From Prolixibacteraceae bacterium (GTDB taxonomy: Bacteria > Bacteroidota > Bacteroidia > Bacteroidales > Prolixibacteraceae): DNA of 64,000 nt. The translations under genes and the position numbers were made by a program. The stretch lies in the NCBI GenBank assembly GCA_028683385.1, contig JAQUIJ010000014.1:62001-126000 (forward strand), written 5' to 3'. Under the pieces are notes generated by a model. The model did not search any database and was not told the DNA's origin. It saw nothing but the letters and a program-made list of their open reading frames with translations. This document shows, piece by piece, positions 4,674 to 54,444 of this stretch. How positions within the stretch are numbered: position 1 is the stretch's first letter; each line of letters opens with the position of its first letter.

Positions 4674-5021
4674 TTACAAGCTATTGAGGGACTCATTAAA
4701 ATGATGAAACTGTGCTATCTTTTCTGCCTTACAGGGAGGTTGAAACAATTCTCTTAATTCCTGTTCAATCTGAACCCTTTTTTGTTGCTTTGAAAACATA
4801 GTGTAGTGTACAAAAATCAATAATTGTCCGTTGCAGCTTTTTATCCAACAGTTTTTTTTTCCTTGGTCCCCGATTCTGGTTCTCAATTTTGAACTTTCGA
4901 CAATGTCGATTAAAAAATATTCAGTATCCACTTTGCAAACAATTGCAAATACACCAGACTGGTCTTTTATTTTATCAATCGATGCAATTGGCCCAGTAAA
5001 TGAATATTTTCCCAATTTCAT
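4674..5021 (-). CDS. GIY-YIG-like small protein
   Basis: 115-aa soluble protein. The order GVFAIVC ... YFLIDIVESSKLRTRI ... CNGQLLIFVHYT ... IEQELRELFQPPC resembles a small Bacteroidota family with a GIY-YIG nuclease fold, where Arg (in KLRTRI) and Glu (in EQEL) would be the catalytic pair. The usual GES after the second beta strand is VES here, so activity is uncertain. It interrupts the metal cluster, and no functional link to metals is visible. Assignment is from pattern recognition and is tentative. Confidence 0.5.
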   Translation of the reverse strand: MKLGKYSFTGPIASIDKIKDQSGVFAIVCKVDTEYFLIDIVESSKLRTRIGDQGKKNCWIKSCNGQLLIFVHYTMFSKQQKRVQIEQELRELFQPPCKAEKIAQFHHFNESLNSL

Positions 5022-5050: not shown

Positions 5051-5506
5051 TTATTGTAAGGTATCTTGTAACGCATTTAAATAATCGATAAGCATTTTCT
5101 TGTTCCCCAGCGATAAACGGGCTTCACGATGAATAAATGTATAGGATGTTAGTGGCATTTCGTCTTTCTCTACTTGGGATACCATCGAACGCAATTTGCT
5201 TTTTTGTTTCCTTACAGAATAGGATCCAAATTCGCTGAAATTTAATTCGGCCTTACCTTTATTGATGTGATTCTGTAAAAACCAACCAACCGGCTGAACT
5301 CTGCTGTACCAGGGATAGCTGGTATTGTTGCTGTGGCAGTTGTAGCAAGAAGTACGCAGGATATGCCCGATATTTTCAGGAACCCCATTGGTTACTATAA
5401 AATCAGAAGGGGGAACCGCCTTATCCTGGTTAGTCCTGGAGGGTATAAACTGAATACCCACCAGAACAACCAACATAACAAAACCTATACGTTTAAGCCG
5501 TTTCAT
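5051..5506 (-). CDS. Haem-binding domain protein (single CxxCH)
   Basis: 151-aa protein with an N-terminal membrane anchor or signal (about 7-21) and one covalent c-type haem motif CYNCH (Cys54, Cys57, His58), followed by YPWYSRVQPVGWFLQNHI. This matches the Bacteroidota 'haem-binding domain' family (Haem_bd). It probably acts as a periplasmic electron carrier. Its start overlaps the end of the DUF3347 gene by 4 bases (ATGA type), so the two are translationally coupled. The context suggests a link to copper redox chemistry, which is inference. Confidence 0.85.
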   Translation of the reverse strand: MKRLKRIGFVMLVVLVGIQFIPSRTNQDKAVPPSDFIVTNGVPENIGHILRTSCYNCHSNNTSYPWYSRVQPVGWFLQNHINKGKAELNFSEFGSYSVRKQKSKLRSMVSQVEKDEMPLTSYTFIHREARLSLGNKKMLIDYLNALQDTLQ

Positions 5507-6105
5507 TTAACTGTAATTTCAACAAGCACTCTGCCACATTTCATCATTTTAGTACCGTAAAAGGGATTTTTAACCTTGTCGGATGTACTTAACCACTTGC
5601 CTCCTTTGTTGTTATTGTACATCGGGCAAAATAGCTGGAACAAGTTTCGGTCTGACCCGGTAATAACAATCAGGTCTTTGAGGTCTCCTCCCAACAGTTC
5701 AAAATGTTCCCTTTGATGGTCAATTTTATCTGCGTTTTCCGAAATATGCTCCGCATTTTCTTTGGCATCATCCAGTATTTCCTTCAATTCTTTTTGTTTG
5801 GGCGCTGGCTGACCCGAAAGATCAAATTTCCCGATGGCATCGAATAATAATTTCCCGGAACTGGCGGCTTTTTTGCTGTTATCATCCACCAAGGCATCTT
5901 TTAAAGCAAGGTAATTGTCGAGGATAGAAGTTACAGAGAGTGAGTGTTTAACCGTTATTGAAGGTATAACTCGTGGTTCCTCTTTCATTTTCGGAGTCAT
6001 ACTGGAATGGCTATTCCCGGAGTTCCCCGAGCCTGAATGGTCGTGTTGGGCGCTTGCCCCCCAGCTTACCAAAGCCAGGAAAAGCATAATCATTGTTGTT
6101 TTCAT
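5503..6105 (-). CDS. DUF3347 domain secreted protein
   Basis: 200-aa protein with a signal peptide (cleavage likely after WGASA, about residue 19), a short His/Ser/Gly linker (HDHSGSGNSGNSHSS) and a helical DUF3347 domain. The domain ends with LFCPMYNNNKGGKWLSTSDKV and NPFYGTKMMKCGRV. DUF3347 domains are common beside CusB-type adaptors and multicopper oxidases and are thought to bind copper. FCPM and MMKCG are candidate ligands. It is coupled to the haem-binding protein by a 4-base overlap. Confidence 0.85.
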   Translation of the reverse strand: MKTTMIMLFLALVSWGASAQHDHSGSGNSGNSHSSMTPKMKEEPRVIPSITVKHSLSVTSILDNYLALKDALVDDNSKKAASSGKLLFDAIGKFDLSGQPAPKQKELKEILDDAKENAEHISENADKIDHQREHFELLGGDLKDLIVITGSDRNLFQLFCPMYNNNKGGKWLSTSDKVKNPFYGTKMMKCGRVLVEITVK

Positions 6106-6122: not shown

Positions 6123-6911
6123 TTAATAACCAAATTTTCTGTTTTGCAGGTATTTTACAACTTCGCTGGTAGTTAGCGGGTTGGTTACATTCCCGGTACG
6201 GAGAAAGAAAATCGTCCGATTGTCTTCGTTGACGAATACAGGATGTTGAGAAGGTTCAATATAGAGCGTGCAAATTTCTTTTGCGTTTATTTCATGGAAG
6301 GCAATATGGATTTTTGTACAAATATCTTTGCCAAAAGCATTTGATATAATCAGAATTAATCGTTGTTGAAATCCATCTTTATCCTTTCTTTTCAATGACC
6401 AGTAATCGTTTTCAAGTCCCAGAATCTCACCGCTGTCGTTTACTCCTATCATTAAAGTTCCTCCTTTTGCATTGAGGAACCCAGCAATTGATTTTAGTAT
6501 TACATCTTCCAAATTTTTATCTGTTTTAATTTGTCGGTAATCGTGCCGTAATGAGGATTTAAACTCGACAAACTCACTTTCTCCGTTGGCGATTAAACTT
6601 GGGATACTTTGTTGTAACAACTGTTTTTTTCCGTAAAGTAGATATTCCCTCTTTTTAATGGATTTATAATAAAAACCAGAGCCCAGACCCATTAATGCGC
6701 CCAGTATTGAAAAAGCCACTGACATGGGCATCATGTGCAAACTGAAAGAATGCCTGACATTTCCCAGAAAAACATCGAATAAATCAGTTAGGGTGTATTC
6801 ATTGGCATTCAATTGAAACCAATAGATAACCATGCTGACCGGGTGTATAAGAAAATATCCGATCAGCAATCCGGCCAAGGTATGGATAATCAGTTCTTTA
6901 TTATTTTTCAT
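6123..6911 (-). CDS. Two-helix membrane module fused to an AlbA_2 (Schlafen-type) domain
   Basis: 262-aa protein. Residues 8-32 and 61-82 are membrane helices with the pattern His10-x12-His23-Pro-x2-Met27, then YWF and HSF (His54). The same module occurs in the two histidine kinases at 8677 and 9810. After a charged linker comes an AlbA_2 domain (about 108-250) with ESEFVEFKSS and FLNAKGGTLMIGV. AlbA_2 domains often bind nucleic acid in regulators. The chimera therefore looks like a membrane sensor with a cytoplasmic nucleic-acid-binding or effector output. I know of no characterised protein with this architecture; function is inferred. Confidence 0.8.
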   Translation of the reverse strand: MKNNKELIIHTLAGLLIGYFLIHPVSMVIYWFQLNANEYTLTDLFDVFLGNVRHSFSLHMMPMSVAFSILGALMGLGSGFYYKSIKKREYLLYGKKQLLQQSIPSLIANGESEFVEFKSSLRHDYRQIKTDKNLEDVILKSIAGFLNAKGGTLMIGVNDSGEILGLENDYWSLKRKDKDGFQQRLILIISNAFGKDICTKIHIAFHEINAKEICTLYIEPSQHPVFVNEDNRTIFFLRTGNVTNPLTTSEVVKYLQNRKFGY

Positions 6912-7060
6912 GGTGAAATATTAAATTTTATGGAATTCGCAATCTGTAATTTTAGAATTAATGGAATGGATAAGGGGTTATGAATCCTTAGTTGTTCTAT
7001 TATACTCTACCTAAACGTTTCCAAGTTTGTCCAAAACCGATGAACTTAATTATGGAAATT

Positions 7061-8557
7061 TTATGCCAATTGATATTGTAACATCATGCCATCATCTTCA
7101 TGTTCAAGGTTGTGGCAATGAAAAACAAATACCCCTTCTAATGTTGCAAATGGGATGATGATTTTTACGGTTTCACGAGGCAAAACTAAAACAGTATCTT
7201 TCCAGCCGCTTTCAGAAGCAGTTAATTTTGCCCTGCCTCCTTTTCTTTCCAATACCTGAAAATGTACGCCGTGCAAGTGCATGGGATGGGGCTCATCGCC
7301 CTGCGAATTATCAAAAACCCATATTTCAGTTGCATTTGCCGCAACTCTTTCATCAATCCGGCTGCTATCGTAAACCTTATCATTGATTCTGTGGATACCA
7401 GTCATATTCATGCCATTGCTCATTTGCATAGCGTTTATTACGAAGGTTCTTGTTTTTGAGGATGAGGAAGGAGGAATAGCATTGATCGAAGAAAGTGAAA
7501 CCGGTACGGTAAAACTATTGTTTACAGATTGTGTTACTTTAAACTTCATAATCTTAAACCCTTGCTTGCCTTGTGCGCTACCGCCATTATCAAACACTCT
7601 GCTCTCTAAAAATATTTCTGTACCAATAGTCGCACCTGCAAAGTTAACAAGCACATCTAATCTTTCTCCTGGGGCTAAAAGTATATTTTTAACAGCTATA
7701 GGATTTTTTAACAGTCCGCCATCGTTGCCGATAATAATGATATCGGTATTATTACTGAAAGCAAGATTATAGATACGGGCATTAGATCCATTTAATATTC
7801 GTAACCTGTAAAATCTTGATGCTACCTCAGCAAAAGGGAAAGCTACGCCATTCACAATAATGGTTTCACCCATATAACCTGACATTACTTCTCCCATTGA
7901 AGGGTTATAGGTAATACCTGATGAAGTAAGCCGCTTATCCTGAATTACCAAAGGAAGTTCAAAATTGCCTGATGGCAGATTCAGGGCTGCTTCTTCTGAA
8001 TCGTTAACCATAAACAAACCAGCTAAGCCCTGAAAAGCTTGTCTGGCAGTTGCACCATCCGGGTGAGGGTGGTACCAGTTTAATCCTGCTCTTTGATTAA
8101 CAGTGAATTGGTAATTAAAACTACTGCCCGGATTTACAATGTCTTCCGGATGCCCATCCATATTGGCGGGAATTTTTAGGCCATGCCAATGGATATTACT
8201 TTTTTCAGAAAGATTATTCTGAAAACTAATGTTGGCATTTGTACCATTATTAACACGAATGGTAGGCCCCAAAATTCCATTTGCCTGATACCCTAAAACA
8301 GAAATGTTGTTGCCATTAACATTAGATGTTGTTGCCTGTGCCGTTAATGATACGTTACCGGTTACTGTGTTGGGAATGGGGAGTAGCCTGCTGAAGTTCC
8401 CTTCAGTTATCGGAAAAGGCTGCCCTCCCATATTCATACCATTATTATTCATCATGTCGCCTTTGGTGCATGAGGCCAAAAGAGAGAAGAAAGAACCACC
8501 AGCAAAAATGCTGCCTGTTCCTATCCCTGTGTTTCTTATGAAATTTCTGCGTTTCAT
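7061..8557 (-). CDS. Multicopper oxidase (CueO/CopA-like)
   Basis: 498-aa oxidase that would oxidise Cu(I) to Cu(II), or another substrate, at a T1 copper and reduce O2 at the trinuclear centre. All four copper motifs are present: HWHG (about 121-124), HPHPDG (about 162), HPMHLHG (about 424) and HCHNLEHEDDGMM (about 480). The N-terminus carries an Arg-Arg (MKRRNF) and a Cys at residue 30 in SLLASC, so it could be a Tat-type or lipoprotein export signal. Met-rich stretches (MMNNNGMNMGG near the N-terminus and MQMSNGMNM) are typical of copper-handling versions. It is a single gene between the AlbA_2 membrane protein and the histidine kinases. Confidence 0.93.
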   Translation of the reverse strand: MKRRNFIRNTGIGTGSIFAGGSFFSLLASCTKGDMMNNNGMNMGGQPFPITEGNFSRLLPIPNTVTGNVSLTAQATTSNVNGNNISVLGYQANGILGPTIRVNNGTNANISFQNNLSEKSNIHWHGLKIPANMDGHPEDIVNPGSSFNYQFTVNQRAGLNWYHPHPDGATARQAFQGLAGLFMVNDSEEAALNLPSGNFELPLVIQDKRLTSSGITYNPSMGEVMSGYMGETIIVNGVAFPFAEVASRFYRLRILNGSNARIYNLAFSNNTDIIIIGNDGGLLKNPIAVKNILLAPGERLDVLVNFAGATIGTEIFLESRVFDNGGSAQGKQGFKIMKFKVTQSVNNSFTVPVSLSSINAIPPSSSSKTRTFVINAMQMSNGMNMTGIHRINDKVYDSSRIDERVAANATEIWVFDNSQGDEPHPMHLHGVHFQVLERKGGRAKLTASESGWKDTVLVLPRETVKIIIPFATLEGVFVFHCHNLEHEDDGMMLQYQLA

Positions 8558-8676
8558 CGTTGTAAAAGTTAGATTAAATGACTATTTATTCTTTCATGTC
8601 AATTACTGTCAAAATACCATTGCCTTATTTTCATGGTGAAATATGTTTTTATCAAAGGCATAAACTAAGCTTTTGA

Positions 8677-9687
8677 TTAATTTTTATAATAAGGGAAATA
8701 TAATTTCACAGTATCTCCGCCATCCGTTGTAGTCCCGATCTCAACTTTTCCTTTTTGTGCTTCACAAATGAGCTTTATCAGCGGAAAATCCAGCCCGTTG
8801 AACCCAACCAAATGGGTTGTACCGCTGCCTAAAAGTTCAAATACATTCTTTTCTTCCTGGGCAGAAAACCAGTTTCCATCATCCCGGATTTCAAGAATTG
8901 CACTGGATATGGATGTATCTTCCCATCCGTCAATTGAGATGTTTTTTTTGCAAAATTGCAGCGCGTTTGAGAGAATGAGATCGATACATGTACTGAATAA
9001 GGCAGCATCAGCGTAGGCAAAGGTTTGACCATCATTTAATCCAGACGAAATGGTAACCGTAACTTGCTTCTGGTCAATCTTCTCACTATGCTTGCTTAGT
9101 AACCATCTTACCTCTTCAAGAAGGTTAATCTTATCGTTTTTAATTTTTTTAGCGTTTGTTCTTAGCTCAGTTATTTTTAAGGCTGTAAGCGAAAAGTTTT
9201 CAAGACGTGTTACCGATGCCTCCAACATATCAACTATACGTCTAAGTTCGCTTGTTGTATCCATGTTTTTAAGTAAACTGACAAAGCCTACAATTCCATG
9301 CAGTGGCGTTCTGATTTCATGGCTGATCAGACGTAGAAAATTTGATTTGATATTGTCTAACTCTATCAGTTGGTCGTTCTTTTCATGTAAGGTTCTTTTT
9401 ATTTTCAATGTTCTGGAATAAAGTCCCGAAACGAATCCGAAGAACCCACCCATCACAGCAAAAATTATACTCATCGGTAACATACTTGAATGGAATGAAT
9501 GCTTAATCCGGGCTACAAACACATCAGCAAATAAGTCGAATGAAATATCTGAAGGGTTAAATTCGAACCAGTAAACCACCATCGTAATTGGGTGCAACAC
9601 AAAAATCGCTATCAGAATACCAATTAATATATGCAGAAGCATAACATTAAAATGAAAATATGGAACGCGATATGTAATTTCTTTCAT
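8677..9687 (-). CDS. Membrane histidine kinase with H-x12-HPxxM module and degenerate ATP lid
   Basis: 336-aa sensor kinase. Two membrane helices (about 17-38 and 70-91) carry the shared pattern His19-x12-His32-Pro-x2-Met36-x2-YWF, followed by HSF (His63). There is no large periplasmic domain, so the metal or redox signal is probably sensed in the membrane. The HisKA phosphoacceptor is His123 (SHEIRTPLHG). The N-box is recognisable (LILSNALQF), but the later boxes read DDGNWF and GFNGLDFPLIK, unlike the canonical DxGxG and GTGLGL, so ATP binding may be weak. No response regulator gene is adjacent. Confidence 0.85.
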   Translation of the reverse strand: MKEITYRVPYFHFNVMLLHILIGILIAIFVLHPITMVVYWFEFNPSDISFDLFADVFVARIKHSFHSSMLPMSIIFAVMGGFFGFVSGLYSRTLKIKRTLHEKNDQLIELDNIKSNFLRLISHEIRTPLHGIVGFVSLLKNMDTTSELRRIVDMLEASVTRLENFSLTALKITELRTNAKKIKNDKINLLEEVRWLLSKHSEKIDQKQVTVTISSGLNDGQTFAYADAALFSTCIDLILSNALQFCKKNISIDGWEDTSISSAILEIRDDGNWFSAQEEKNVFELLGSGTTHLVGFNGLDFPLIKLICEAQKGKVEIGTTTDGGDTVKLYFPYYKN

Positions 9688-9809
9688 GATTTTTTCTTTT
9701 TATCTTGATGCCTATCTCAACAATCGCAGTATCACTCAATCAGCAGCAATAAATTTTTATTCAGAGGTCATTTTGAGTTATGACCTTATAGTTTCTATTC
9801 TTCAATCGG

Positions 9810-10898
9810 TCAGTCAAATTGAGGAATGGTGAAATAAAATATTGAACCTTTCCCTTCTTTGCTTTCCACCTCAATTTTTCCACCTTGCTTTTCGACGAAT
9901 TCTTTACATAGCGTCAGTCCCAGTCCGGTGCTGGGTTCACCTTCAGTTCCATTTCTATTGGTTTGACTATCGAGTCGGAATAAATGATCAACCATCGTGT
10001 TATTCATTCCAATGCCGGAATCTTTAATCGAAATTTCAACTCGATTGTCGCCTTTAATTTTAGCTGAAACATTTATTTTTCCACCTTTATAAGTAAATTT
10101 CACAGCGTTTGAAACCAGATTCCGGATGACAAATTGGAGCATCTTGCTATCGGCAAAAACCGCTAAGTCATTCGGAATATCATAAGTGATTTCTATTTCC
10201 TTGCTTTTTGCTGATTCCAAAATCATTACGATACTTTCCTTCACTTCAGGTAATAGTTCAATCGGTTTCGGGTCGAAAGGAATTAATCCTTGCTGCATCC
10301 TTGCCCATTCAAGTAGGTTTTCGAGTAAATGGTAGAGGCTGGTAGCAGAATTCTCCATGCTTAATGTAATCTGATGAATTTGATCGATTGTCATGTTTGG
10401 TAATTCTTCCACCAATATGCGGGTCAGTCCCCAAAAACCATTTAGAGGGCTTCGTAAGTCGTGGGCAATAATGGAGAAAAAAATATCCTTTTCGTTGTTG
10501 GATTTTTTCAGTTCAGCTATCTTTTCTTCAAGATATTTATTCAGGTTTTTTAGTTTACCTAGTGTTTCATTTAGCTGATATTGCTGTCCATTTATTTCTT
10601 GTTCCTGGCGACGGATTTTCCTGAAGTAAAGTCCGGGCGCTAATCCGGCAATACACCCGATCACTGCAAAAGCCAGCGATACAGACACCGCATCCGGATG
10701 AAAGGCATGTATAAATCCTTTGTTTGAAGCTTCAAGTAGACTTTTTAGTGTAATACCGGCGTTATTGATCTTAAACCAGTAAATAAACATGGTGACGGGA
10801 TGCAATACAAAATATCCCAGCAATCCTCCGGCCACTGTATGGATAAATACAGAACTTTCTGTTATTCGACGAACTGATGTGCTTATTTTTTCATCCAT
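9810..10898 (-). CDS. Membrane histidine kinase with H-x12-HPxxM module
   Basis: 362-aa sensor kinase. Helices at about 18-41 and 70-91 carry His20-x12-His33-Pro-x2-Met37-x2-YWF and HAF (His64), the same module as the genes at 6123 and 8677. A coiled-coil linker (about 95-135) leads to HisKA with His146 (AHDLRSPLNG) and an intact HATPase domain: N-box LVSNAVKF, G1 DSGIG, G2 TGLGL. The second paralogous kinase lies 122 bases downstream. There is no response regulator nearby, so the partner is elsewhere or the kinases act together. It is probably tied to metal stress because it sits directly downstream of the CusABC genes. Confidence 0.88.
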   Translation of the reverse strand: MDEKISTSVRRITESSVFIHTVAGGLLGYFVLHPVTMFIYWFKINNAGITLKSLLEASNKGFIHAFHPDAVSVSLAFAVIGCIAGLAPGLYFRKIRRQEQEINGQQYQLNETLGKLKNLNKYLEEKIAELKKSNNEKDIFFSIIAHDLRSPLNGFWGLTRILVEELPNMTIDQIHQITLSMENSATSLYHLLENLLEWARMQQGLIPFDPKPIELLPEVKESIVMILESAKSKEIEITYDIPNDLAVFADSKMLQFVIRNLVSNAVKFTYKGGKINVSAKIKGDNRVEISIKDSGIGMNNTMVDHLFRLDSQTNRNGTEGEPSTGLGLTLCKEFVEKQGGKIEVESKEGKGSIFYFTIPQFD

Positions 10899-10990: not shown

Positions 10991-12583
10991 TTATTTCCGA
11001 TAAGCACAGCACTCAGGAAGAGCTATATAGGCAGCATCCGAAGCTTTGTATTTTTCGGTATCGTGGCCAGCATTGGCTATAGCTTTCTGTATGGCATCCA
11101 AATTGGTTTTAGCACCATCAAACTGAACATGCAGCATTTTTGTTTCTGTACTCCATTCTGCCGAACTTACCCCTGAAACGGATTTTGCAGCCGTTTCTAT
11201 CCGGTCTTTGCACATCTCGCATTCTCCGGAAACTTTAATTGTTTGGTGTTCCATGTTTGCCATTTCAGTCCCTTGTTTCATATTCATCACGGCTTTTTCA
11301 CCCGTCATTTCACCATGATTATGTCCAGTCGAAACTATTCCACCTGAAGGGTTCATCATGCTCGGTTTGCCTTCCAATTGGGCTGCTGCATCCACGCTGA
11401 ACGCGCTTTGGGTCACAATTTCTTCACCATCTGCCAAACCGTCCAAAACCACATAACTATTCCCCAATTGAGGTCCCAATTCAATTTCGCGGATTTTGAA
11501 AACAGGCTCCTCGCTGTTGGGTTCCTTCACATACACTATGGAACGTTTTCCTGTCCAAAGCACTGCCGAACGCGGAATAACCAACTTGTCCTGAAATTCC
11601 GGGAGATTTGCTTTTACTAGTCCGGTGGCAAACATTTCAGGTTTTAGTTTGCCACCCGGATTGCTGATCTCAACCCGAACTTTGGCAACTCGGTTTACCG
11701 GATCAATCACCGGATCGATAAACCTAACATTTCCGGAATAAGTTGAACCTGGCAATGCCTGAATAGTGAAATCAATTTTATCGCCAGTTTTAAGGAATGG
11801 AAGATCGCTTTCGTAGGCATCAAACAACACCCAAACTCGCGATAAGTCTGAAACTTCGAAAAGTACCGAACCTTGACTAACATAGTCGCCATTATTGACG
11901 CGCCTTCCAGTAATAATGCCTGAAGTATTCGATTCAACCTCTACATTGGCCTGAACATTCCCTGAACTCTCGATTGCTGAAATTTGGGAATCAGTCAGTT
12001 TCCACTGTCGAAGTTTTTCCTTTGATGCCTCATAAATTTCGGGCTGTGCTTTTTTCGTTTTGACAGATTCGAGCAGTTCCTGCTGGGCTGTTACGAGTTC
12101 GGGCGAATAAATGAGCGCCAGTTTTTGTCCTTTTCTGACTGGCTCACCTGTAAAATTAACCAGCAATTTTTCAACCCTTCCGGAGATATGTGCCACCTGA
12201 TTTTGTAGCAAACGCTCATCTGCCTGAACTTTTCCGTAAAGACGCACTTCTTTTTCTGTGTTTTGGCGCGAAACAACCGATGTGAGCACGTTGGCCAACT
12301 GGGCTGCCTCTTTAGTCAAATGCACGGCAGCCGGATCCATTTCTGCGGTGCCGCTCTGCGTGAGCGGAATTAAATCCATCGCACAAATGGGGCATTTACC
12401 GGGTTTATCCATTCGAATATGCGGATGCATCGAACAGGTCCAAACTTCAGATTTTGAAGCTTCTGCTGCGTGGTCGTGTTTTTCTTCTTTGGCCGGAGAT
12501 GAATGGAAGAATATCCAACCAAGTAAAATGCCCCCAGTCAGAATGAGGCTAAAGCGGACGTATTTATTACTAAATATTTTCAT
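10991..12583 (-). CDS. cusB: RND periplasmic adaptor (CusB-like) with N-terminal HMBD and C-terminal HMA domains
   Basis: 530-aa membrane-fusion protein of a heavy-metal RND pump. Order: membrane anchor (about 10-27); a heavy-metal-binding domain with Cys50 (WTCSMHPHI) and Cys64/Cys67 (GKCPICAMDL); barrel-sandwich hybrid, hairpin and beta-barrel domains (about 110-400); a His/Met linker; and an HMA domain with CEMC at Cys455/Cys458 and Cys525-Cys526 in LPECCAYRK. The C-terminal HMA domain matches the free-standing HMA proteins of this cluster, so the adaptor carries its own tethered chaperone. Third gene of a cusA-tolC-cusB order, 18 bases after the TolC gene. Confidence 0.92.
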   Translation of the reverse strand: MKIFSNKYVRFSLILTGGILLGWIFFHSSPAKEEKHDHAAEASKSEVWTCSMHPHIRMDKPGKCPICAMDLIPLTQSGTAEMDPAAVHLTKEAAQLANVLTSVVSRQNTEKEVRLYGKVQADERLLQNQVAHISGRVEKLLVNFTGEPVRKGQKLALIYSPELVTAQQELLESVKTKKAQPEIYEASKEKLRQWKLTDSQISAIESSGNVQANVEVESNTSGIITGRRVNNGDYVSQGSVLFEVSDLSRVWVLFDAYESDLPFLKTGDKIDFTIQALPGSTYSGNVRFIDPVIDPVNRVAKVRVEISNPGGKLKPEMFATGLVKANLPEFQDKLVIPRSAVLWTGKRSIVYVKEPNSEEPVFKIREIELGPQLGNSYVVLDGLADGEEIVTQSAFSVDAAAQLEGKPSMMNPSGGIVSTGHNHGEMTGEKAVMNMKQGTEMANMEHQTIKVSGECEMCKDRIETAAKSVSGVSSAEWSTETKMLHVQFDGAKTNLDAIQKAIANAGHDTEKYKASDAAYIALPECCAYRK

Positions 12584-12601
12584 CTTATCTGAATTTTAAT
12601 G

Positions 12602-14056
12602 TTATTGAATTTTCATAAATGCCATTAATCGTTTGAGCCATGCAACAGATGTATTGTAGTCGGCTATTGCTTCAACCTGCCGGTACTCGTAATCGAGCGT
12701 TTGTTGCCTGACACGTAGTATATCGGTGAGGGAAGTACCTGATGATGCAAAACTTTTGAACATGATATCGAGAGATTTAGATGCTAACTGATATTGATCA
12801 GCATAAAGTTTCGTCCTGCGCTGAGCATCCTGATACAACTGTAATGCCTGATAATATTCGGTGTGAAGTGAATTCGCCACAGCCTTGTAATTTTGGACAT
12901 TCGCCGATTTCAAAAAGTCGGCTTCGTCACGCATCGCTTTGTACTTTTTACGGTAAATGGGCAAGGAGGCTGTTATCATGGGCATCACCATATCTTTTCC
13001 GTTCATCGGCGATGTTGACATTTCACTTTTATTGATCAGCGAATAATTTAGGCCCAGCCCAACCATTGGGTAACTCATTTTGGTAACCATCTGTTTGCGG
13101 GCTTCCAGCGATTGTTGTTCGAATTGCAGCATTCCCAACATAGGATTATTTTTCAGGATGCTGTCAGGTACAGCCAAGAATGAAGTCTCAAAATTTTCTG
13201 ACTTCAGAGTATCTGGCAAACTGACAATTGCTACCTGCGGCCTGTTCAGATAACTGTTAAATTGTGCAGAAATGGTAATTAACTGGTTGTTTAATAGATT
13301 AATGTTATTCTGAAGATCACCAATTTCAATCTGAATACGATATACATCCGAAAGTCCCGAGCCACCAGTGGAAGAACCCATTGAACTGCCACCCCCCATT
13401 GGTGTGGCAGCTTGGCTTGGAGCTGTTCCGGCAGAATTGCCGGAAGCTCCTCCCATGCTATTCATGCCGGATGATCCGGACGAAGAACCTGGAGTGGAAC
13501 TCTGGGGCATTGATTTGCCAGCAGAAGTAGAACTGTTACCTGATGTACCAGCTTTAAACCTTACAATGGCCAATCGTTCAATCGTCCGAAGCAAACTAAT
13601 GTTTTTCTCCGAAACACGGATATTCTGTTTGACCTTATTCAATTCGTACCACGTGCGTTGCACATCGTAAAATACCTGCAATTTGGCATCACGAAATGTT
13701 TCATATTTCGCTTTGGCCATCAGGCTCATCTCATCTTTGGCATTTTTCAGCACACCAAACCACGGAAACATTTGCATTAGACGGATGTCAGCAAGCTGAT
13801 TCCCACCCATAAGTTCCATAGGTTTTAGGAAAACCCCAAGACTAACATCAGGATCGGGCAAACTTCCCACCTGTGGTACTTTCTGCAAAGCAGCCTCGTA
13901 CTCAGCATACCGCTGAAGTACAGTTGGATTATTTTTGGCGGCAATTTCAAGATAGTTGAATAAAGAATCTGTCGGTTCCTGACCATTTCCAATAACCCAA
14001 CTTCCAAGTGCAAGCAAAAAGAACAGTAATTTTTTATATGCCTGAGTTTTCATCAT
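12602..14056 (-). CDS. TolC-family outer membrane factor of the Cus pump
   Basis: 484-aa outer-membrane channel component for the CusA/CusB pump. It has a signal peptide (about 1-25) and the typical long helices of the OEP family. An unusual Ser/Gly/Met low-complexity insertion spans residues 170-235, between the two helical halves, where it would sit in the periplasmic or equatorial part. The start overlaps the end of cusA by 23 bases, so translation is coupled. ATG codons at 14056 and 14053 are both possible. The Met residues in the insertion may bind Cu(I), which is inference. Confidence 0.88.
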   Translation of the reverse strand: MMKTQAYKKLLFFLLALGSWVIGNGQEPTDSLFNYLEIAAKNNPTVLQRYAEYEAALQKVPQVGSLPDPDVSLGVFLKPMELMGGNQLADIRLMQMFPWFGVLKNAKDEMSLMAKAKYETFRDAKLQVFYDVQRTWYELNKVKQNIRVSEKNISLLRTIERLAIVRFKAGTSGNSSTSAGKSMPQSSTPGSSSGSSGMNSMGGASGNSAGTAPSQAATPMGGGSSMGSSTGGSGLSDVYRIQIEIGDLQNNINLLNNQLITISAQFNSYLNRPQVAIVSLPDTLKSENFETSFLAVPDSILKNNPMLGMLQFEQQSLEARKQMVTKMSYPMVGLGLNYSLINKSEMSTSPMNGKDMVMPMITASLPIYRKKYKAMRDEADFLKSANVQNYKAVANSLHTEYYQALQLYQDAQRRTKLYADQYQLASKSLDIMFKSFASSGTSLTDILRVRQQTLDYEYRQVEAIADYNTSVAWLKRLMAFMKIQ

Positions 14057-17000
14057 CTTGATTGTTTAGGTTATTAATCGCTAATTTATTGTGCTTGGTT
14101 ACTGCATTTTCCCTCCACATGGCCTGAAACATCGGGACAACGAAGACGGTCATTACCTGAATAACCATGCCTCCAAACATTGGTATTGCCATTGGGATCA
14201 TGATGTCGGAACCCTTACCATTCGATGATAAAACAGGCAGCAAAGCGATGACAGCAACAGCGGTGGTCATCATCGCCGGACGGACACGTTTCAATCCGGC
14301 AGAAACAACTGCTTCGCGAACTTCGTGAACAGTTGCCGGGTGCCGGGCTTCGAATACCTGGTGAATATAGGTACCCATGATTACCCCGTCGTTGGTAGCA
14401 ATCCCGAACAGTGCAATGAAACCGACCCAGACCGCGACGCTCAAATTAATCGTGTGCATCTGGAACATATCGCGGAGGTTGATCCCTTCAATTGAAAAGT
14501 TAAGGAACCAGCCTTGCCCATAAAGCCAAAGCATAATAAAACCACCCGCAAAAGCAACGAATACTCCCGAGAAGTGAATTAGTGATGCTGTAACTGTGCG
14601 GAATTGAAAATAGAGCAACAACAATATCAAGAGCAAACTTATTGGTATTACAATTGCCAATCGTTTGGTGGCTCTTATCTGATGCTCGTAATTACCGGCA
14701 AAGTTATATGATACGCCAGTGGGTAATACAAGAGCGCCTGAACTTAGTTTTTCCTTCAATATTTTAGTTGCCTGATCCACCACATCGACTTCGGCTATAC
14801 CTTCGTTTTTATCGAAAATAACATACCCGTTCAAAAATGTATTTTCGCTTCGGATCATTTGTGCGCCACGGGTATAATCAATGTCTGCAATTTCGCTTAA
14901 TGGAATCTGAACGCCGTTCATCGCTGGAATCAGTATGCGTTTAATGTCTTCCGGATTGTCGCGCAATTCGCGGGCATAACGAACCCGGATCGGGAAGCGT
15001 TCACGACCTTCGACCGATGATGAAAGCGCCATACCTCCAACTGCCACCGAAAGAACTTCCTGCACATCGCTCACACTCATTCCATATCGCGCCATCGCTT
15101 CACGGTTAAGCTTGATTTCGAGGTATGGTGCGCCAACGGCACGGTCGTAGAACACCGCAGAAGCTTTGATCGATGGTACTTCTTTCAGCGCTTGTTCAAG
15201 CAACATTCCTCCCTGTTCAATTGCATCCAGATCGGGACCAAATACTTTTAATCCCATCGGAGCACGCATTCCGGTTGAAAGCATTACCAATCTGGTTTCA
15301 ATAGGCTGCAATTTAGGAGCTGAAGTCAATCCCGGAATATTGGTCACTTTAACGATTTCGTTCCAGATATCATTCGGTTTTTTGATTTCAGGTCGCCATT
15401 GCCGGAAGTATTCGCCACTTTCGACAGGGATAAGACTGTCGGCAGAAATAGCCCTAAAACCTTCCTTATTAAGATTGTATTTAGATCCACTTTTAAGTAT
15501 ATAGCTACCATCACGGTCAACCTTAAACTGCATACGATGGCCATTTTCATCCAGTATATATTCGGGACGATAATTGATTGTATTCTCGAACATCTGCACT
15601 GGTGCCGGATCAAGAGCTGAGTTAACCCGGCCCCATTTCCCAACAGCAACTTCAACCTCAGGAATGGCTGAAAGCCTTTTGTCAAGTGTTTCAATGTATT
15701 CGAGGTTCTTTTGAATGCTGGAATGCGGCATACTGGTTGGCATCAAAAGGAACGAACCTTCATTTAAAGATGGCATAAACTCTTTTCCCGTACCCGGAAA
15801 TGTTTCAGTAGAAGACTTCCAAAAAGAAGTTTGCCTGAATTCTTTCCAACCTACTTTTTCCATTCCCGTGGCAACACCACCGAATGTTTTATCAAATCCC
15901 TGCCAGGCCAGCAATCCGAATAACAAAGTAATTGCAGGTATAATGAGGAATTTCCATTTGTGTTCCAATGCCCATCGCATAATGCCTTCATAAAAATGTA
16001 CCATCGACATCAGGGCTGCAAGAATCACCACAATTATTCCACTAACAAAAATAAAGTTTGAGAAGGTGCTGTTGTGCGCGCCTAACGGAAGCCACTCGAT
16101 AGTGAGGTACCAGGCAGCCACAAGTACAGTAATGGCAATGTTGATGTAGTTTGGAAATTCTTTCCGGCGCTCTGGCCAGCGGTAATCGAGCAAATTATTA
16201 ATACCAACAGCGATTAGGGCCAAGGCAGGCCAGACTTGCCAGACAATGACAATCAACACACCGGCAATCATCAAACAACCGTTCCATATCCGTCGGATTT
16301 TTTTTGTATCAACACGAATATTAAAGAAGATATGTGTTAATGTAGGCAATACAACAATACCGAGAATAAACGCTGAAATCAGTGAAAAGGTCTTTGTGAA
16401 TGCCAGTGGATGAAACAGCTTTCCTTCGGCAGCCTGCATGGCGAAAACGGGAAGGAAGCTGACGATGGTTGTAGCAATAGATGTCACTACGGCATCACGC
16501 ACCTCCGTGGTTGCATTGTAAACAACCGACATCAGTTTTTTTCCACGGATTCCTTTATTTTCCGGCATTTCGAGGTGCCGGAGAATATTTTCGACATCCA
16601 CAATTCCAATATCGACCATTACACCAATGGCAATAGCTATACCCGAAAGGGCTACAATATTGGCATCGATTCCGAAAAGACGCATCAAAATGAAAGTCAT
16701 TAGTACGCCAATTGGCAGCAGTCCGGCTACTATAAGTGAGGCCCTTAAATTCATCACCAGAACAATGATGACGATGATACTGATCAGGATTTCGTGCGAA
16801 AGGGCTGATTCGAGTGTTCCGATGGTTTCCATGATCAGCCCGGTACGGTCGTAAAACGGTACGATGGTAACTTTCGAGATACTGCCATCAGGCAACGTTT
16901 TTTGTGGCAATCCGGCTTCAAGTTCCTTGATCTTATTTTTGACATTACCAATAACGTCCATTGGATTTGAGCCGTATCGTGCCACCACAACAGCACCCAC

Positions 17001-17903
17001 AGCTTCAGAGCCAGCTTTATCCAATCCTCCGCGACGGGTAGCCGGTCCAAATACCACGTGGGCCACATCTTTAATCCGCACCGGAACGTTATTCCGGACA
17101 GCAACTACTGAGACCTCAAGATCTTCCAGATTCTTTACATACCCCAAACCTCGGATAATATACTCTACATTATTCAATTCAATGGTTTCTGCTCCAATGT
17201 CGAGGTTGCTTTTGCGCACGGCATTCATTACATCCATGGCCGAAACATTGAACGCTTTCAACGCTTCAGGATTTAAGTCGATCTGGTATTCTTTAATGAA
17301 ACCACCAACTGACGCCACTTCTGAAACCCCTTCAGCAGTGGTAAGTCCGTATTTGACGTAGAAATCCTGAATGGTGCGCAATTCTTGTGGATCCCAGCCA
17401 CCGTTTGGCTTTCCGGTTTTGGGATCACGGCCCTCAAGTGTGTACCAGTAAATTTGCCCCAATGCGGTGGCATCCGGTCCTAAAGTGGGCTGTACGCCCT
17501 GAGGCAAAGTGCCAGAAGGTAACGAATTTAGCTTTTCGAGAATACGTGAACGGCTCCAGTAAAATTCTACATTATCTTTGAAGATAATATAGATAAAAGA
17601 CATTCCGAACATGGAAGTACTCCGTATGGTTTGTACGCCGGGGATACCCAGCAAAGCCGTAGTTAGCGGGTAACTTATCTGATCTTGAATGTCTTTGGGA
17701 GAACGCCCCATCCATTCAGTAGCTACAATCTGCTGATTCTCCCCAATGTCGGGGATCGCATCCACCGCAATCGGATCGCGGGGAAAATAATCAGGTTTCC
17801 AGTTGAACGGCATGTATACCATGCCCAAAACCACAAAAGTGATCAGGAACATAAAGGTAATCAGCCGGTTTTCAAGAAAATATTTGACGAGTCGGTTGAA
17901 CAT
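14034..17903 (-). CDS. cusA: Heavy-metal RND efflux pump CusA/CzcA family, enlarged
   Basis: 1289-aa inner-membrane pump expelling Cu(I)/Ag(I) or similar metals by proton antiport. The family TM4 signature GVMVDIGIVDVEN is at about 425-440. Met-rich porter features resemble CusA: EFMPSLNEGSFLLMPTSMP and MLSTGMRAPMGLKV. E. coli CusA has about 1047 aa; the extra length here is largely an insertion at about 560-680 with three or four more hydrophobic segments, a form seen in Bacteroidota homologues. It is the first pump gene, 28 bases downstream of the YHS lipoprotein and overlapping the TolC gene. Confidence 0.93.
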   Translation of the reverse strand: MFNRLVKYFLENRLITFMFLITFVVLGMVYMPFNWKPDYFPRDPIAVDAIPDIGENQQIVATEWMGRSPKDIQDQISYPLTTALLGIPGVQTIRSTSMFGMSFIYIIFKDNVEFYWSRSRILEKLNSLPSGTLPQGVQPTLGPDATALGQIYWYTLEGRDPKTGKPNGGWDPQELRTIQDFYVKYGLTTAEGVSEVASVGGFIKEYQIDLNPEALKAFNVSAMDVMNAVRKSNLDIGAETIELNNVEYIIRGLGYVKNLEDLEVSVVAVRNNVPVRIKDVAHVVFGPATRRGGLDKAGSEAVGAVVVARYGSNPMDVIGNVKNKIKELEAGLPQKTLPDGSISKVTIVPFYDRTGLIMETIGTLESALSHEILISIIVIIVLVMNLRASLIVAGLLPIGVLMTFILMRLFGIDANIVALSGIAIAIGVMVDIGIVDVENILRHLEMPENKGIRGKKLMSVVYNATTEVRDAVVTSIATTIVSFLPVFAMQAAEGKLFHPLAFTKTFSLISAFILGIVVLPTLTHIFFNIRVDTKKIRRIWNGCLMIAGVLIVIVWQVWPALALIAVGINNLLDYRWPERRKEFPNYINIAITVLVAAWYLTIEWLPLGAHNSTFSNFIFVSGIIVVILAALMSMVHFYEGIMRWALEHKWKFLIIPAITLLFGLLAWQGFDKTFGGVATGMEKVGWKEFRQTSFWKSSTETFPGTGKEFMPSLNEGSFLLMPTSMPHSSIQKNLEYIETLDKRLSAIPEVEVAVGKWGRVNSALDPAPVQMFENTINYRPEYILDENGHRMQFKVDRDGSYILKSGSKYNLNKEGFRAISADSLIPVESGEYFRQWRPEIKKPNDIWNEIVKVTNIPGLTSAPKLQPIETRLVMLSTGMRAPMGLKVFGPDLDAIEQGGMLLEQALKEVPSIKASAVFYDRAVGAPYLEIKLNREAMARYGMSVSDVQEVLSVAVGGMALSSSVEGRERFPIRVRYARELRDNPEDIKRILIPAMNGVQIPLSEIADIDYTRGAQMIRSENTFLNGYVIFDKNEGIAEVDVVDQATKILKEKLSSGALVLPTGVSYNFAGNYEHQIRATKRLAIVIPISLLLILLLLYFQFRTVTASLIHFSGVFVAFAGGFIMLWLYGQGWFLNFSIEGINLRDMFQMHTINLSVAVWVGFIALFGIATNDGVIMGTYIHQVFEARHPATVHEVREAVVSAGLKRVRPAMMTTAVAVIALLPVLSSNGKGSDIMIPMAIPMFGGMVIQVMTVFVVPMFQAMWRENAVTKHNKLAINNLNNQDDENSGI

Positions 17904-47736: not shown

Positions 47737-49782
47737 TCAATCCAACAATGCTTTTATCAAGCAGTCTTTTAAGTCGGTGTAGTACTGAATGTTGATTTTG
47801 GTGACCATATCATCGGAAAGCTCATTTAATTGTTTTCGGGCGTTTAGTGGTATTAGGATTGTAGTCGCTCCTTTTTCAACCGCTAATTCGGCCAAATTAA
47901 CCGCGTTATAAACCAAATCGACTGAACCTCCAAGATTAAGCTGCCCGACTATAATCAGGCCACCTTTGGTGCTTTTTTCAAGCAAAGCGCTGCACAAGGA
48001 AATTAACACAGCCATGCCCATTCCGTTTCCACTCTTTGACGCATCAAATGCCCTTAACTGAATTGAAAATTCATGCGAACGTGGGTCTCTGTCGCCAACT
48101 AACTCCTTGGTTTTGCTGTATAGATTTTGTTCTGCATATTTCACACTTTCCTGAAATTGCGGTGGGGCCGGTTTGTTTAATATTTTTACGCCAGAACCGG
48201 GACCTACATTGACTTCGATTTTGTATAAACCGGTTGAATCTTCTTGTCCACCTGCATTCAATGCCCAAATCTGGCCGGGAGGCAGTGGGTCATCACCAAT
48301 TGTATTTTCACTGTGAATTTCAGGAGTAGTTACAAATGTTTCTATTCCTTCTTCTCCAATCCGGTAACTGAAATGGGTATTCCGAAACTCTGCTGAACCA
48401 ATTCGCTTTTGCTGTTCCTTAACCCTCCTTCTGTATTCCAATGAAACCTTTATTGCCCATTCCAACAATTCGTCGGAGACCGGAGCATCTGGTCTTGGCT
48501 GCATCAATTTCAGCAATCCATTCAGGGTTTTATTAACAGCAGTCGTATCTCTTCCGCTTAATGCGCCACCGTAATCAATACGATATGCAACCGAAGAAAT
48601 TCGGCTTATGTCGCGCAGTCTTGTCCAGCATTCTGCAAGAAAATCGCTGACTAAGCCAAAATGATTGGTGAAATAGACTTTGTTTAATTTTGGAAAGTCC
48701 CAGCCCGGCACGAAAGCATGAATACGGTCCATAAAAGCCGTATCATCACGCATTTCCTGTGGGAGCGGACCAAATAAGTGTCCAATTCTTTGCTGATGTT
48801 CAACATCTACTTCAAAGTTGCCCACCATCACAATGCCGCCGTCTGCCCTTATTGGTTCTTTACCACGGCTGAACTCGCCACTTTCCATGTAACCTTTCAT
48901 GATGTTTACACCATCTTTCTGGTCGAATGATACTCCTGAAACCTCGTCGAAGCAAACGACATCGTATTTACAAACAAGGCCACGTTCGCCGCTTCCCATG
49001 TTTACAAACATCTTTGCAACGGTAGCTTTACCTCCCGAAACCAAATGCGAATAGGGTGAAATCTGCTGGTAAAGATGTGATTTCCCTGTTCCTCTTGGCC
49101 CAAGTTCTATCATATTGTAGTTGCGTTCCAGAAATGGAAGCATTCGAACAAAAAGAACATTTTTTGCCTTTTCTGATAATTCGGTTGGTTCCATTCCAAC
49201 GCTTCGTATTAAAAAATCTTTCCATTCTTCGAGCGTGAAATGCTCCCTGCCTTTATAGAGAATATCCAGAACATTTCGCTGCGACAATTGGATGGGCCGA
49301 ATATTTGTAATCCCAAAAGGTCTGCCATTGTTTTCCTGGGCAATAGCTGCATCGTATTCCAATTCGATTTCAGCATAAAAACCGCCGGTAAGCATTCGGT
49401 CGTTGGCATTTACCACCTCTGCCGAAATGCGAACCTTATTGAGTTGCAAGCTTGGTAAAGTGGCAATATAACTGTCGGTATTTGTATCTAATTTTGCCGT
49501 TACAATATCAATGATTTTTATTGTTCCTTTTTCACGGGCTTTTGACTTAAAATATTCTTCTTCACCCGGACGAACGGTTCTGTCTTGAAGCTGCCGTTTT
49601 ACAATTTCCAAGCCTTCCAGAATTTCGGCTTCGTTGGTAGTTGCGCAATACCGGCCTAAGAGAAATTCAATTACATAAGTTGGCACCGGATAAGTTTTGC
49701 GGAATTGCTCTAACAAGTCTTTTCTTACAATAAAGCCTTCGAAAGCATTGGCTGCAATTTGGTCGATTTTATCTAATTCCAT
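47737..49782 (-). CDS. brxL: BrxL, BREX AAA+ ATPase with Lon-like C-terminus
   Basis: 681-aa BREX type 1 protein. N-terminal region, then AAA+ domain with Walker A GPRGTGKSHLYQQ (about 228) and Walker B KYDVVCFDEVSG (about 270), then a Lon-type (S16) domain at about 560-681. In my alignment with Lon, the catalytic Ser of DGPSAG falls in SGNGMG and the catalytic Lys of GGLKEK falls at GGSVDL, so both residues are missing. BrxL forms rings on DNA and is needed for defence. Starts 11 bases after the pglZ stop. Confidence 0.93.
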   Translation of the reverse strand: MELDKIDQIAANAFEGFIVRKDLLEQFRKTYPVPTYVIEFLLGRYCATTNEAEILEGLEIVKRQLQDRTVRPGEEEYFKSKAREKGTIKIIDIVTAKLDTNTDSYIATLPSLQLNKVRISAEVVNANDRMLTGGFYAEIELEYDAAIAQENNGRPFGITNIRPIQLSQRNVLDILYKGREHFTLEEWKDFLIRSVGMEPTELSEKAKNVLFVRMLPFLERNYNMIELGPRGTGKSHLYQQISPYSHLVSGGKATVAKMFVNMGSGERGLVCKYDVVCFDEVSGVSFDQKDGVNIMKGYMESGEFSRGKEPIRADGGIVMVGNFEVDVEHQQRIGHLFGPLPQEMRDDTAFMDRIHAFVPGWDFPKLNKVYFTNHFGLVSDFLAECWTRLRDISRISSVAYRIDYGGALSGRDTTAVNKTLNGLLKLMQPRPDAPVSDELLEWAIKVSLEYRRRVKEQQKRIGSAEFRNTHFSYRIGEEGIETFVTTPEIHSENTIGDDPLPPGQIWALNAGGQEDSTGLYKIEVNVGPGSGVKILNKPAPPQFQESVKYAEQNLYSKTKELVGDRDPRSHEFSIQLRAFDASKSGNGMGMAVLISLCSALLEKSTKGGLIIVGQLNLGGSVDLVYNAVNLAELAVEKGATTILIPLNARKQLNELSDDMVTKINIQYYTDLKDCLIKALLD

Positions 49783-49793
49783 GACTATTTTTT

Positions 49794-52103: not shown

Positions 52104-52116
52104 TTCATGTGTTTAT

Positions 52117-54132: not shown

Positions 54133-54140
54133 AAACTATT

Positions 54141-54444
54141 TATTTTCTCTTGCTCTTCGTTTTTTCTCTTTAATCAAAATCGGAAAGGTAGTTTTTATCT
54201 TACTGAATAAATATTGAACTGTTTCCAAAATGGAAATGGTTGCTTCTTATTCCGTCCGAAAAAAGGTAAATGCCTTGTTCAACTTCGCAGCGCGGACGGT
54301 TTTTCTGTTCATTCATTTTACCCGGGGCTTCACCCCGGGCTACAAATATTTCGCCCGTACCGGGCTGAAACTCCAACTTCATGGTATTGCCCTTTCGTTA
54401 TTAAAAGTTACTGCATATTTTCTCTTGCTTTTCGTTTTTCTTCC
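54141..54444. repeat. Direct repeat pair flanking a REP-bearing insert at the pglX 3' end
   Basis: TATTTTCTCTTGC and following bases occur at 54141-54170 and 54416-54444, 275 bases apart, about 85% alike. The right copy is the coding end of pglX (RKARENM-Q-stop); the left copy would read RRARENK-stop. So the 275-bp gap looks like an insertion that duplicated the pglX end. Confidence 0.65.
54321..54365. repeat. REP-like tandem palindromes
   Basis: Hairpin CCCGGGG-CTTCA-CCCCGGG (54321-54339) followed by GCCCG-TAC-CGGGC (54353-54365), with TACAAATATTTC between. The pair has the layout of REP/RAYT-type palindromes. It is GC-rich in an AT-rich gap and lies between pglX and the AlbA_2 gene in the BREX operon. 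Confidence 0.75.

Follow-up and report, generated by a model that had tools for sequence, protein, structure and literature searches.

Why do three proteins with different outputs, encoded close together among copper genes, begin with the same pair of membrane helices? The question is raised by a stretch of 64,000 nucleotides from a Prolixibacteraceae bacterium (phylum Bacteroidota; GenBank assembly GCA_028683385.1, contig JAQUIJ010000014.1, here C52, positions 62,001 to 126,000), which is called the window below. The proteins are AlbA2, which ends in an AlbA_2 (Schlafen-type) domain, and the histidine kinases HK1 and HK2; their open reading frames (6123-6911, 8677-9687 and 9810-10898, respectively) all lie on the minus strand. 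An earlier inspection, the sequence-only reading, had proposed that one pair of helices with His and Met inside the membrane served all three outputs as a Cu(I) or redox sensor. The present analysis points, with moderate confidence, to an input within the membrane that responds to Cu(I) through a His/Met/Met/Trp set like that of CusF and that was moved among outputs.

A shared two-helix module in three window proteins

The N-termini of AlbA2, HK1 and HK2 are one homologous two-helix module of common descent. Their alignment of 108 columns contains 20 invariant positions, and the N-termini of HK1 and HK2 are each 37% identical to that of AlbA2. The pattern H-x12-H-P-x2-M-x2-Y-W-F occurs in all three and is followed, before helix 2, by HSF in AlbA2 and HK1 and by HAF in HK2. 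As an AlbA_2 protein from another locus (L024) matched HK2 of the window over 100 residues with a BLASTP E value of 1e-20, the three N-termini are homologous and not alike by chance. The sequence-only reading had recognized the same helix pair at the start of the three proteins, and alignment and relatives bear this out; its residue numbers (H10/H23/M27 in AlbA2, H19/H32/M36 in HK1, H20/H33/M37 in HK2) and its HSF/HAF motif were also right. Unless stated otherwise, module residues are numbered as in AlbA2.

Searches of Pfam and NCBIfam matched only the output domains and gave nothing convincing for the module itself. PDB sequence searches with the AlbA2 module and with an 18-row alignment returned weak matches only, which were taken as chance, including citrate synthase (E value 0.19). 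In these three libraries no described family was found, in line with the sequence-only reading, which knew of none.

AlphaFold2 models placed helices at residues 5-34, 41-55 and 58-109 of AlbA2 (mean predicted local distance difference test score 86) and at residues 10-43, 50-64 and 67-140 of HK1 (mean 77). The hydropathy maxima of AlbA2 lie at about residues 7-34 and 55-82. The 23-residue, presumably periplasmic segment that joins the two membrane helices holds an amphipathic helix, and Met60 and Met63 are located on the first turns of helix 2. Because there is no room between the helices, the module has no periplasmic metal-binding domain of the CusS type. A basic stretch follows helix 2, and by the positive-inside rule the outputs would therefore be cytoplasmic. 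On an ideal helix, H23, M27, F20 and W31 of helix 1 fall within 80 degrees of each other, and so do M63, F67, M60 and G71 of helix 2; H10 points 140 degrees away from H23.

Module residues and the metal context

Rows from copper and from zinc/cadmium contexts were compared position by position. In the 33 copper-context rows, which still include near-copies and several rows per locus, H23, P24 and W31 were present throughout, M27 in 32, M60, M63 and H10 in 31 each, and H54 in 21. The same combination of two helices and an AlbA_2 domain is also found in zinc/cadmium clusters, which contain a CzcA-type pump (1466-1477 residues), an adaptor, a P-II-like protein and P-type ATPases, often with Fur-like repressors (called by eye). 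The 14 rows from these clusters all kept P24, G14 and G71. H23, M27, W31, M60 and M63 were each found in 0 of 14, and His10 was missing as well; position 23 was Gln in 12 rows and Ser in 2, and D57 and D59 were present in all 14. Two copies found later on Pontibacter plasmids (L135 and L136) have no His/Met and also lack the Asp pair, so that D57-x-D59 holds in 14 of 16 zinc/cadmium copies. Collapsing at 80% identity left 24 copper and 7 zinc/cadmium rows. Among these the two contexts were separated best by columns 23, 60, 27, 56, 31 and 63, and a Fisher test for H23 gave 4e-7, although the rows are not independent.

Beside copper genes, His23, Pro24, Met27, Trp31, Met60 and Met63 are near-invariant. 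His23 and Met27, which the sequence-only reading had selected, are thus conserved, while its other choices are less so: His10 is dispensable, and His54 (of HSF/HAF), kept in only 21 of 33 copper rows, was rejected as a core ligand. Met60, Met63 and Trp31 are better kept than His54 and had not been named as ligands before. His10 was rejected as an essential ligand since it is replaced by P, Y or A in the copper-context loci L109, L123 and L134, which keep His23; in other copies with His23 it is Q, K, E or D, and L038 and L046 are among those with a replacement. Lack of conservation of His and Met in homologues had been named beforehand as the observation that would speak against a metal site. 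Loss was found mainly beside zinc/cadmium pumps, which fits a metal site.

Several rows were left out of these counts. Two short-loop rows (described below) were dropped, though they lie in copper islands; they keep H23, P24, M27 and M63 and lack H10, W31 and M60, and with them included the copper counts become H23 35/35, M27 34, M63 33, W31 33, M60 31 and H10 31. L038 (on a 5.9-kb contig), L047 and L133 have no metal genes in view and were counted as neutral; L038 has H23, M27, M60 and M63, and the other two are without His/Met. Also dropped were L046 (broken frame), L048 (pump type unclear), the broken or cut copies L052|5535 (= L010/L018), L029|5247 and L032|1686, the duplicates L122 (= L027) and L072, L076 and L077 (near-identical to L071), and the 96-residue stand-alone copies L041/L042/L073|17043.

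The context was also assigned from the nearest resistance-nodulation-division (RND) or P-type pump of each locus, classed by BLAST score with the module residues not consulted. Among the 46 loci, which are not independent and on the copper side partly selected by pattern, the nearest pump was copper-type in 18 and zinc/cadmium-type in 18, and no pump was in view in 10. H23 was present in 17 of the 18 copper-type loci (exception L048) and in 1 of the 18 zinc/cadmium-type loci (L046). After addition of L134 (copper, with H23) and of L135 and L136 (zinc/cadmium, without), the figures were 18 of 19 versus 1 of 20. With NCBIfam models the ATPases of L034 and L031 reached 599 and 595 bits for the copper family (cut-off 397) and 379 and 400 bits for the cadmium family, whose cut-off of 313.5 both also pass. 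The ATPase of L134 also scored higher for the copper family than for the cadmium family; in the six others tested (L046, L049, L071, L073, L110 and L135) the cadmium family scored higher and the copper family remained below its cut-off.

A less biased sample was obtained with the full-length profiles A3 and A6, whose score derives mostly from the output domain. The seven copper copies found with the AlbA_2 profile (L106-L109, L112, L123 and L134) all had H23, M60 and M63; M27 was present in six (Ala in L108), W31 in six and H10 in four. On the AlbA_2 tree the context labels need three changes. The two contrasts tested on this tree go the expected way; in the coding used, L046 counted as lacking the ligand set, though part of it is retained.

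The genome of the window contains a second protein with two helices and an AlbA_2 domain (L004/L049), which lies on the same contig at C52:44 kb, outside the window and at a distance of about 24 kb. Its cluster (C52, 32-50 kb) comprises a CzcA-type pump, a ZntA-type ATPase and a P-II-like protein, and this paralogue is free of the module's His/Met. Its output domain is 73% identical to that of AlbA2 and its module 13%; in the copper-type protein of L012 the corresponding values are 73% and 61%. An initial interpretation of L049/L050 as a module swap was withdrawn: with 4.75 changes per column the branch of their module is so long that the module may either have been exchanged or have diverged very fast.

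A number of observations count against a copper-responsive input. In HK2 of the window the two Met of helix 2 are replaced by Ala and Val, and its orthologue L025|146 also lacks M60 and M63. The peptides used in the pattern scan held H23 or M27/Y30/W31/F32, so that for L024-L039 part of the conservation in these columns stems from the search itself, and profiles A3 and A6 include the module too. W31 is Phe in the copper-type L134. The copper label is weakest for L107-L109, which have an oxidase, DUF3347 or CusB-like pieces and no pump in view. The Sphingorhabdus copy L046, next to a cadmium-type ATPase and a CzcA-like pump, keeps H23, P24, W31, M60 and M63; it has lost H10 and M27 and has a stop within the frame. 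The Pontibacter copy L048 has no His/Met, though it lies 86 bases from a split RND pump that is closer to CusA of the window. Mixed surroundings occur as well. The zinc/cadmium-type L071 and L072 have a CusA-type pump at 7.9 kb (on the opposite strand), and L113, whose context is otherwise zinc/cadmium, has a CopA-type ATPase at the same distance of 7.9 kb. The copper-type L052 has a CzcA-type pump at 7.8 kb, and an oxidase is found near the zinc/cadmium-type L049. The AlbA_2 tree offers only two independent contrasts on well supported branches and three on all branches, and the AlphaFold2 models are monomers.

Outputs, distribution and neighbourhood of the module

The output domain of AlbA2 matched the Pfam family PF04326 (SLFN_AlbA_2) with 69 bits (cut-off 25.3). 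Foldseek found the structures 3lmm (E value 7.6e-7) and SLFN13 (6.1e-5), with query TM-scores of only 0.43 and 0.30, respectively. The catalytic acids of the Schlafen RNase SLFN13 are given as E205, E210 and D248 in the sections of PMC5862951 compared here; E111, E116 and D159 of AlbA2 correspond to them by motif spacing, not by superposition. All three acids were present in 23 of 27 aligned AlbA_2 rows, and at least one was lost in 4 of 27. Because the window protein and 23 of the 27 rows have them, nuclease activity is possible for AlbA2 and would not be universal in the group. AlbA2 resembles the Schlafen proteins SLFN13, SLFN5 and DIP2311 in output family, fold and the E-x4-E motif with a later Asp, and differs from them in being anchored to the membrane by a putative metal sensor. 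In L123, L135 and L136 the second Glu of E-x4-E is Ala, which suggests, from the motif, binding without cleavage in these variants. PADLOC reported nothing for AlbA2.

A role of AlbA_2 as a signalling output is plausible. Homologues without the module and with other inputs (L065-L069, L092-L096 and L100-L105) were not included in the counts. L092 and L093 join the domain to a periplasmic SBP_bac_3 solute-binding domain and a helix, and L066 joins it to a cyclic-nucleotide-binding domain. L100, L102 and L104, the three scanned of L100-L104, have extracytoplasmic regions with no Pfam match. A receiver domain supposed in L067 was not confirmed by Pfam.

In HK2 both domains of the kinase core, HisKA and HATPase_c, were clear with Pfam. 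In HK1 HisKA is intact and HATPase_c marginal (26.6 bits, cut-off 26.4). The G2 box and ATP lid of HK1 appear degenerate by eye (GFNGLDFPL; GLDFPLIKL in orthologues, GLVFPLLKL in L031), and to judge from these motifs HK1 may be a pseudokinase or a partner kinase rather than a full kinase. Pfam matched no HAMP domain in either protein. No response regulator (PF00072) was matched inside the window (C52:62001-126000), and the partner may lie elsewhere in the genome, where 84 such matches were obtained, including a single one on this contig (C52:23.6 kb).

Relatives of the module carry AlbA_2, two histidine-kinase lineages of the HisKA type and, in a short-loop variant, a SpoIIE phosphatase, as expected from the earlier proposal of one module with different outputs. 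The short-loop relatives ('HPLSMLI', H-P-x2-M) are the SpoIIE protein L030|12411 of Carboxylicivirga and the kinase L024|10678, both in copper islands. A search of 296 Bacteroidota genomes with the short-loop alignment returned only HK1 and HK2 of the window, and this branch stays thin. The best module tree contains four output changes, only one of which is required by well supported branches. The module is thus mobile among outputs, with at least one move.

With the three-row profile, matches at an E value of 0.01 or below were obtained in 9 of the 61 genomes of the relatives search, including that of the window; those in two of the nine (G049 and G058) were weak and were taken as chance. Loci L005, L006, L013 and L014 were also tried as homologues, and their weak matches were judged chance. 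A pattern-led scan of a collection of 84,980 species yielded 16 module loci, some sharing a genome. The module is rare in an even sample of the phylum (3 of 395 genomes, the window's own included), and the other two genomes hold only a 96-residue stand-alone relative. Stand-alone copies of this length (L073:17043-17330 and L042, genomes G286 and G258) are of the zinc/cadmium type, have no output domain and lie near a ZntA-type ATPase. The module is found in Bacteroidota and, to judge from record titles, reaches Acidobacteriota and Planctomycetota at 34-35% identity, and the broken copy L046 is located on an alphaproteobacterial plasmid. A supposed spread to Chlorobiota was dropped, as L027 duplicates L122, which is placed in the window's own order. 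Copper or heavy-metal genes were in view at 15 of the 16 pattern-scan loci, with L038 as the exception; they were Cus-like genes, multicopper oxidases, DUF3347, heavy-metal-associated-domain proteins or P-type ATPases. The copper setting recognized earlier in the window thus extends to Acidobacteriota.

In the window the module is surrounded by a copper cluster on one strand, with CusCBA-like genes, a CueO-like oxidase, DUF3347 and heavy-metal-associated-domain proteins (Table 1). Cus-like efflux genes also adjoin the module in relatives. The oxidase gene lies inside the span 6123-10898 considered by the sequence-only reading, which omitted it. A 115-residue protein (4674-5021) with no significant Pfam match is kept in the copper clusters of L024, L026, L032 and L033. 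The same 64-kb stretch also holds a set resembling the bacteriophage exclusion (BREX) defence (47737-61087, minus strand) with BrxL, PglZ, an AlbA_2-like protein, PglX and BrxC; the AlbA_2-like protein (52117-54132) was called by eye and had weak matches to models of the prokaryotic Argonaute (pAgo) type.

Table 1. Parts of the module-bearing proteins and adjacent genes in the window
Feature	Position	Strand	Evidence
AlbA2 two-helix input module, residues 1-85	6657..6911	-	Alignment, conservation, AlphaFold2
AlbA2 module, transmembrane helix 1: H10, G14, H23, P24, M27, W31; then amphipathic helix			
AlbA2 module, transmembrane helix 2: M60, M63, G71, G75, G79			
AlbA_2 (Schlafen-type) output domain, residues 106-258	6138..6596	-	Pfam PF04326 6.7e-19; fold matches
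HK1 two-helix module (H19, H32, P33, M36, W40, H63, M69, M72; HK1 numbering)	9400..9687	-	Alignment; AlphaFold2
HK1 kinase core, HisKA intact, HATPase_c weak	8689..9348	-	Pfam HisKA 1.1e-11, HATPase_c 8.5e-6
HK2 two-helix module (H20, H33, P34, M37; HK2 numbering)	10605..10898	-	Alignment
HK2 kinase core, GLGL motif intact	9819..10490	-	Pfam HisKA 1.3e-7, HATPase_c 6.4e-26
CueO-like multicopper oxidase, between AlbA2 and HK1	7061..8557	-	Pfam, NCBIfam
CusB-, CusC- and CusA-like efflux genes, upstream of HK2, same direction	10991..17903	-	Sequence reading
DUF3347 and haem-binding-domain proteins, downstream of AlbA2	5051..6105	-	Pfam; kept in relatives

Putative copper site and alternative explanations

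The conserved residues are proposed to form a Cu(I)/Ag(I) site in the periplasmic half of the membrane, to which one face of helix 1 would contribute His23, Met27 and Trp31, and the start of helix 2 Met60 and Met63. Trp31 would cap the site, and the ligand set would be the His, Met, Met and Trp of CusF. Cu(I) arriving from the periplasm or the membrane would bind there and bring the upper ends of the two helices closer to each other, a movement that would travel down helix 2, which was modelled as one helix continuing toward the output. The output would then change its state: the kinase activity of HK2, or nucleic-acid binding or cleavage by AlbA_2. In zinc/cadmium clusters AlbA_2 is joined to a module that has other residues at these positions.

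The sections compared of PMC8534201 and PMC5083920 describe intramembrane-sensing histidine kinases such as SaeS and BceS as lacking a sensor domain and as having two membrane helices that a short extracytoplasmic linker connects. The module has this layout, with its two helices and short linker on a kinase core. It differs in the conserved His/Met/Trp set within the helices, since none of these kinases has metal ligands in the descriptions compared, and in that its helices are also found on AlbA_2 and SpoIIE outputs. SaeS, according to the part of PMC5083920 compared, has a HAMP domain, unlike the window kinases in the Pfam search. As with CusS and CopS, a membrane kinase stands beside CusCBA genes. 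Ag(I)/Cu(I) is bound by His and Met in CusS, whose periplasmic sensing domain comprises residues 35-187 (PMC10100754, section compared); the module is without such a domain and has only its 23-residue segment. For CusF the passages compared give H36, M47, M49 and W44 as ligands (PMC4462101), W44 being a pi-cation cap (PMC6235853). The likeness of the module to CusF lies in this residue set, which is present and conserved and from which the site is postulated. CusF is a small soluble beta-barrel, whereas the module is helical in both models and carries the set on two membrane helices; there was no sign of sequence kinship between the two. Among the matches listed, titles and the beginnings of abstracts in the open-licence literature described no AlbA_2/Schlafen protein or copper kinase with such a module, and tied no metal stress to nucleic-acid handling via AlbA_2. 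The system looks like a known architecture (intramembrane-sensing kinases) in a known context (CusS-type copper sensing), with a module that is undescribed in the sources searched.

The helices might instead dock to the pump or to another membrane partner that itself senses the metal, with residues that differ between cluster types to fit different partners. Of the 46 module loci, 36 have a pump of assigned type in view, transporter-coupled intramembrane kinases are known (PMC8534201, part compared), and positions that are not ligands (F56, G75 and G79) also separate or differ between the groups. The separating columns, however, are chiefly His/Met/Met versus Gln, Leu/Ile and Asp, as a choice of metal predicts, and the residues are unchanged in L031, L034 and L054, where the neighbour is a CopA-type ATPase and no RND pump is in view. 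Docking is considered unlikely.

Less likely still is a plain membrane anchor, in which the helices would only hold the outputs near the pumps and His and Met would be conserved for packing. Pro24, Gly14 and Gly71, kept in both groups, would serve packing, but in a pure anchor one would expect neither conservation of His, Met and Trp within the membrane nor their joint replacement when the cluster handles another metal.

H-x12/13-H pairs hold haems in cytochrome b or NADPH oxidases. A haem b redox sensor, in which His10 and His23 of two subunits would hold two haems across the membrane and redox changes would drive the outputs, is suggested by H-x12-H in one helix, several conserved Gly and the nearby haem-binding-domain gene, but is very improbable, as His10 is replaced while His23 stays (L109, L123, L134, L038 and L046), the two His point 140 degrees apart, and the 14 zinc/cadmium rows keep neither; the redox role that the sequence-only reading had offered as an alternative is accordingly less likely.

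Beyond the copper site itself, a wider proposal can be put forward only tentatively. The module may represent a family of plug-in intramembrane metal sensors, a hairpin with five fixed ligand positions near the periplasmic face, in which His/Met/Trp versus Gln/Asp would set copper/silver versus zinc/cadmium/cobalt and which would have passed between histidine kinases, a Schlafen-type nuclease and a PP2C-type phosphatase. One metal cluster could in this way drive several unlike outputs, among them metal-gated handling of RNA or DNA at the membrane. The copper-type and zinc/cadmium-type copies that occur naturally in one genome make the choice of metal testable by module exchange.

The known copper sensors have a cytoplasmic site, as in CueR, CsoR and CopY, or a periplasmic domain, as in CusS. 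A sensor that holds copper inside a pair of membrane helices, as proposed here, would add a third type to these. According to the part of PMC11213822 compared, a kinase of Bizionia argentinensis was set aside as a copper-sensor candidate because it has no periplasmic domain; the present module is a reason to re-examine that kinase, which may or may not bear it. The AlbA_2 output would connect metal stress with nucleic-acid handling at the membrane.

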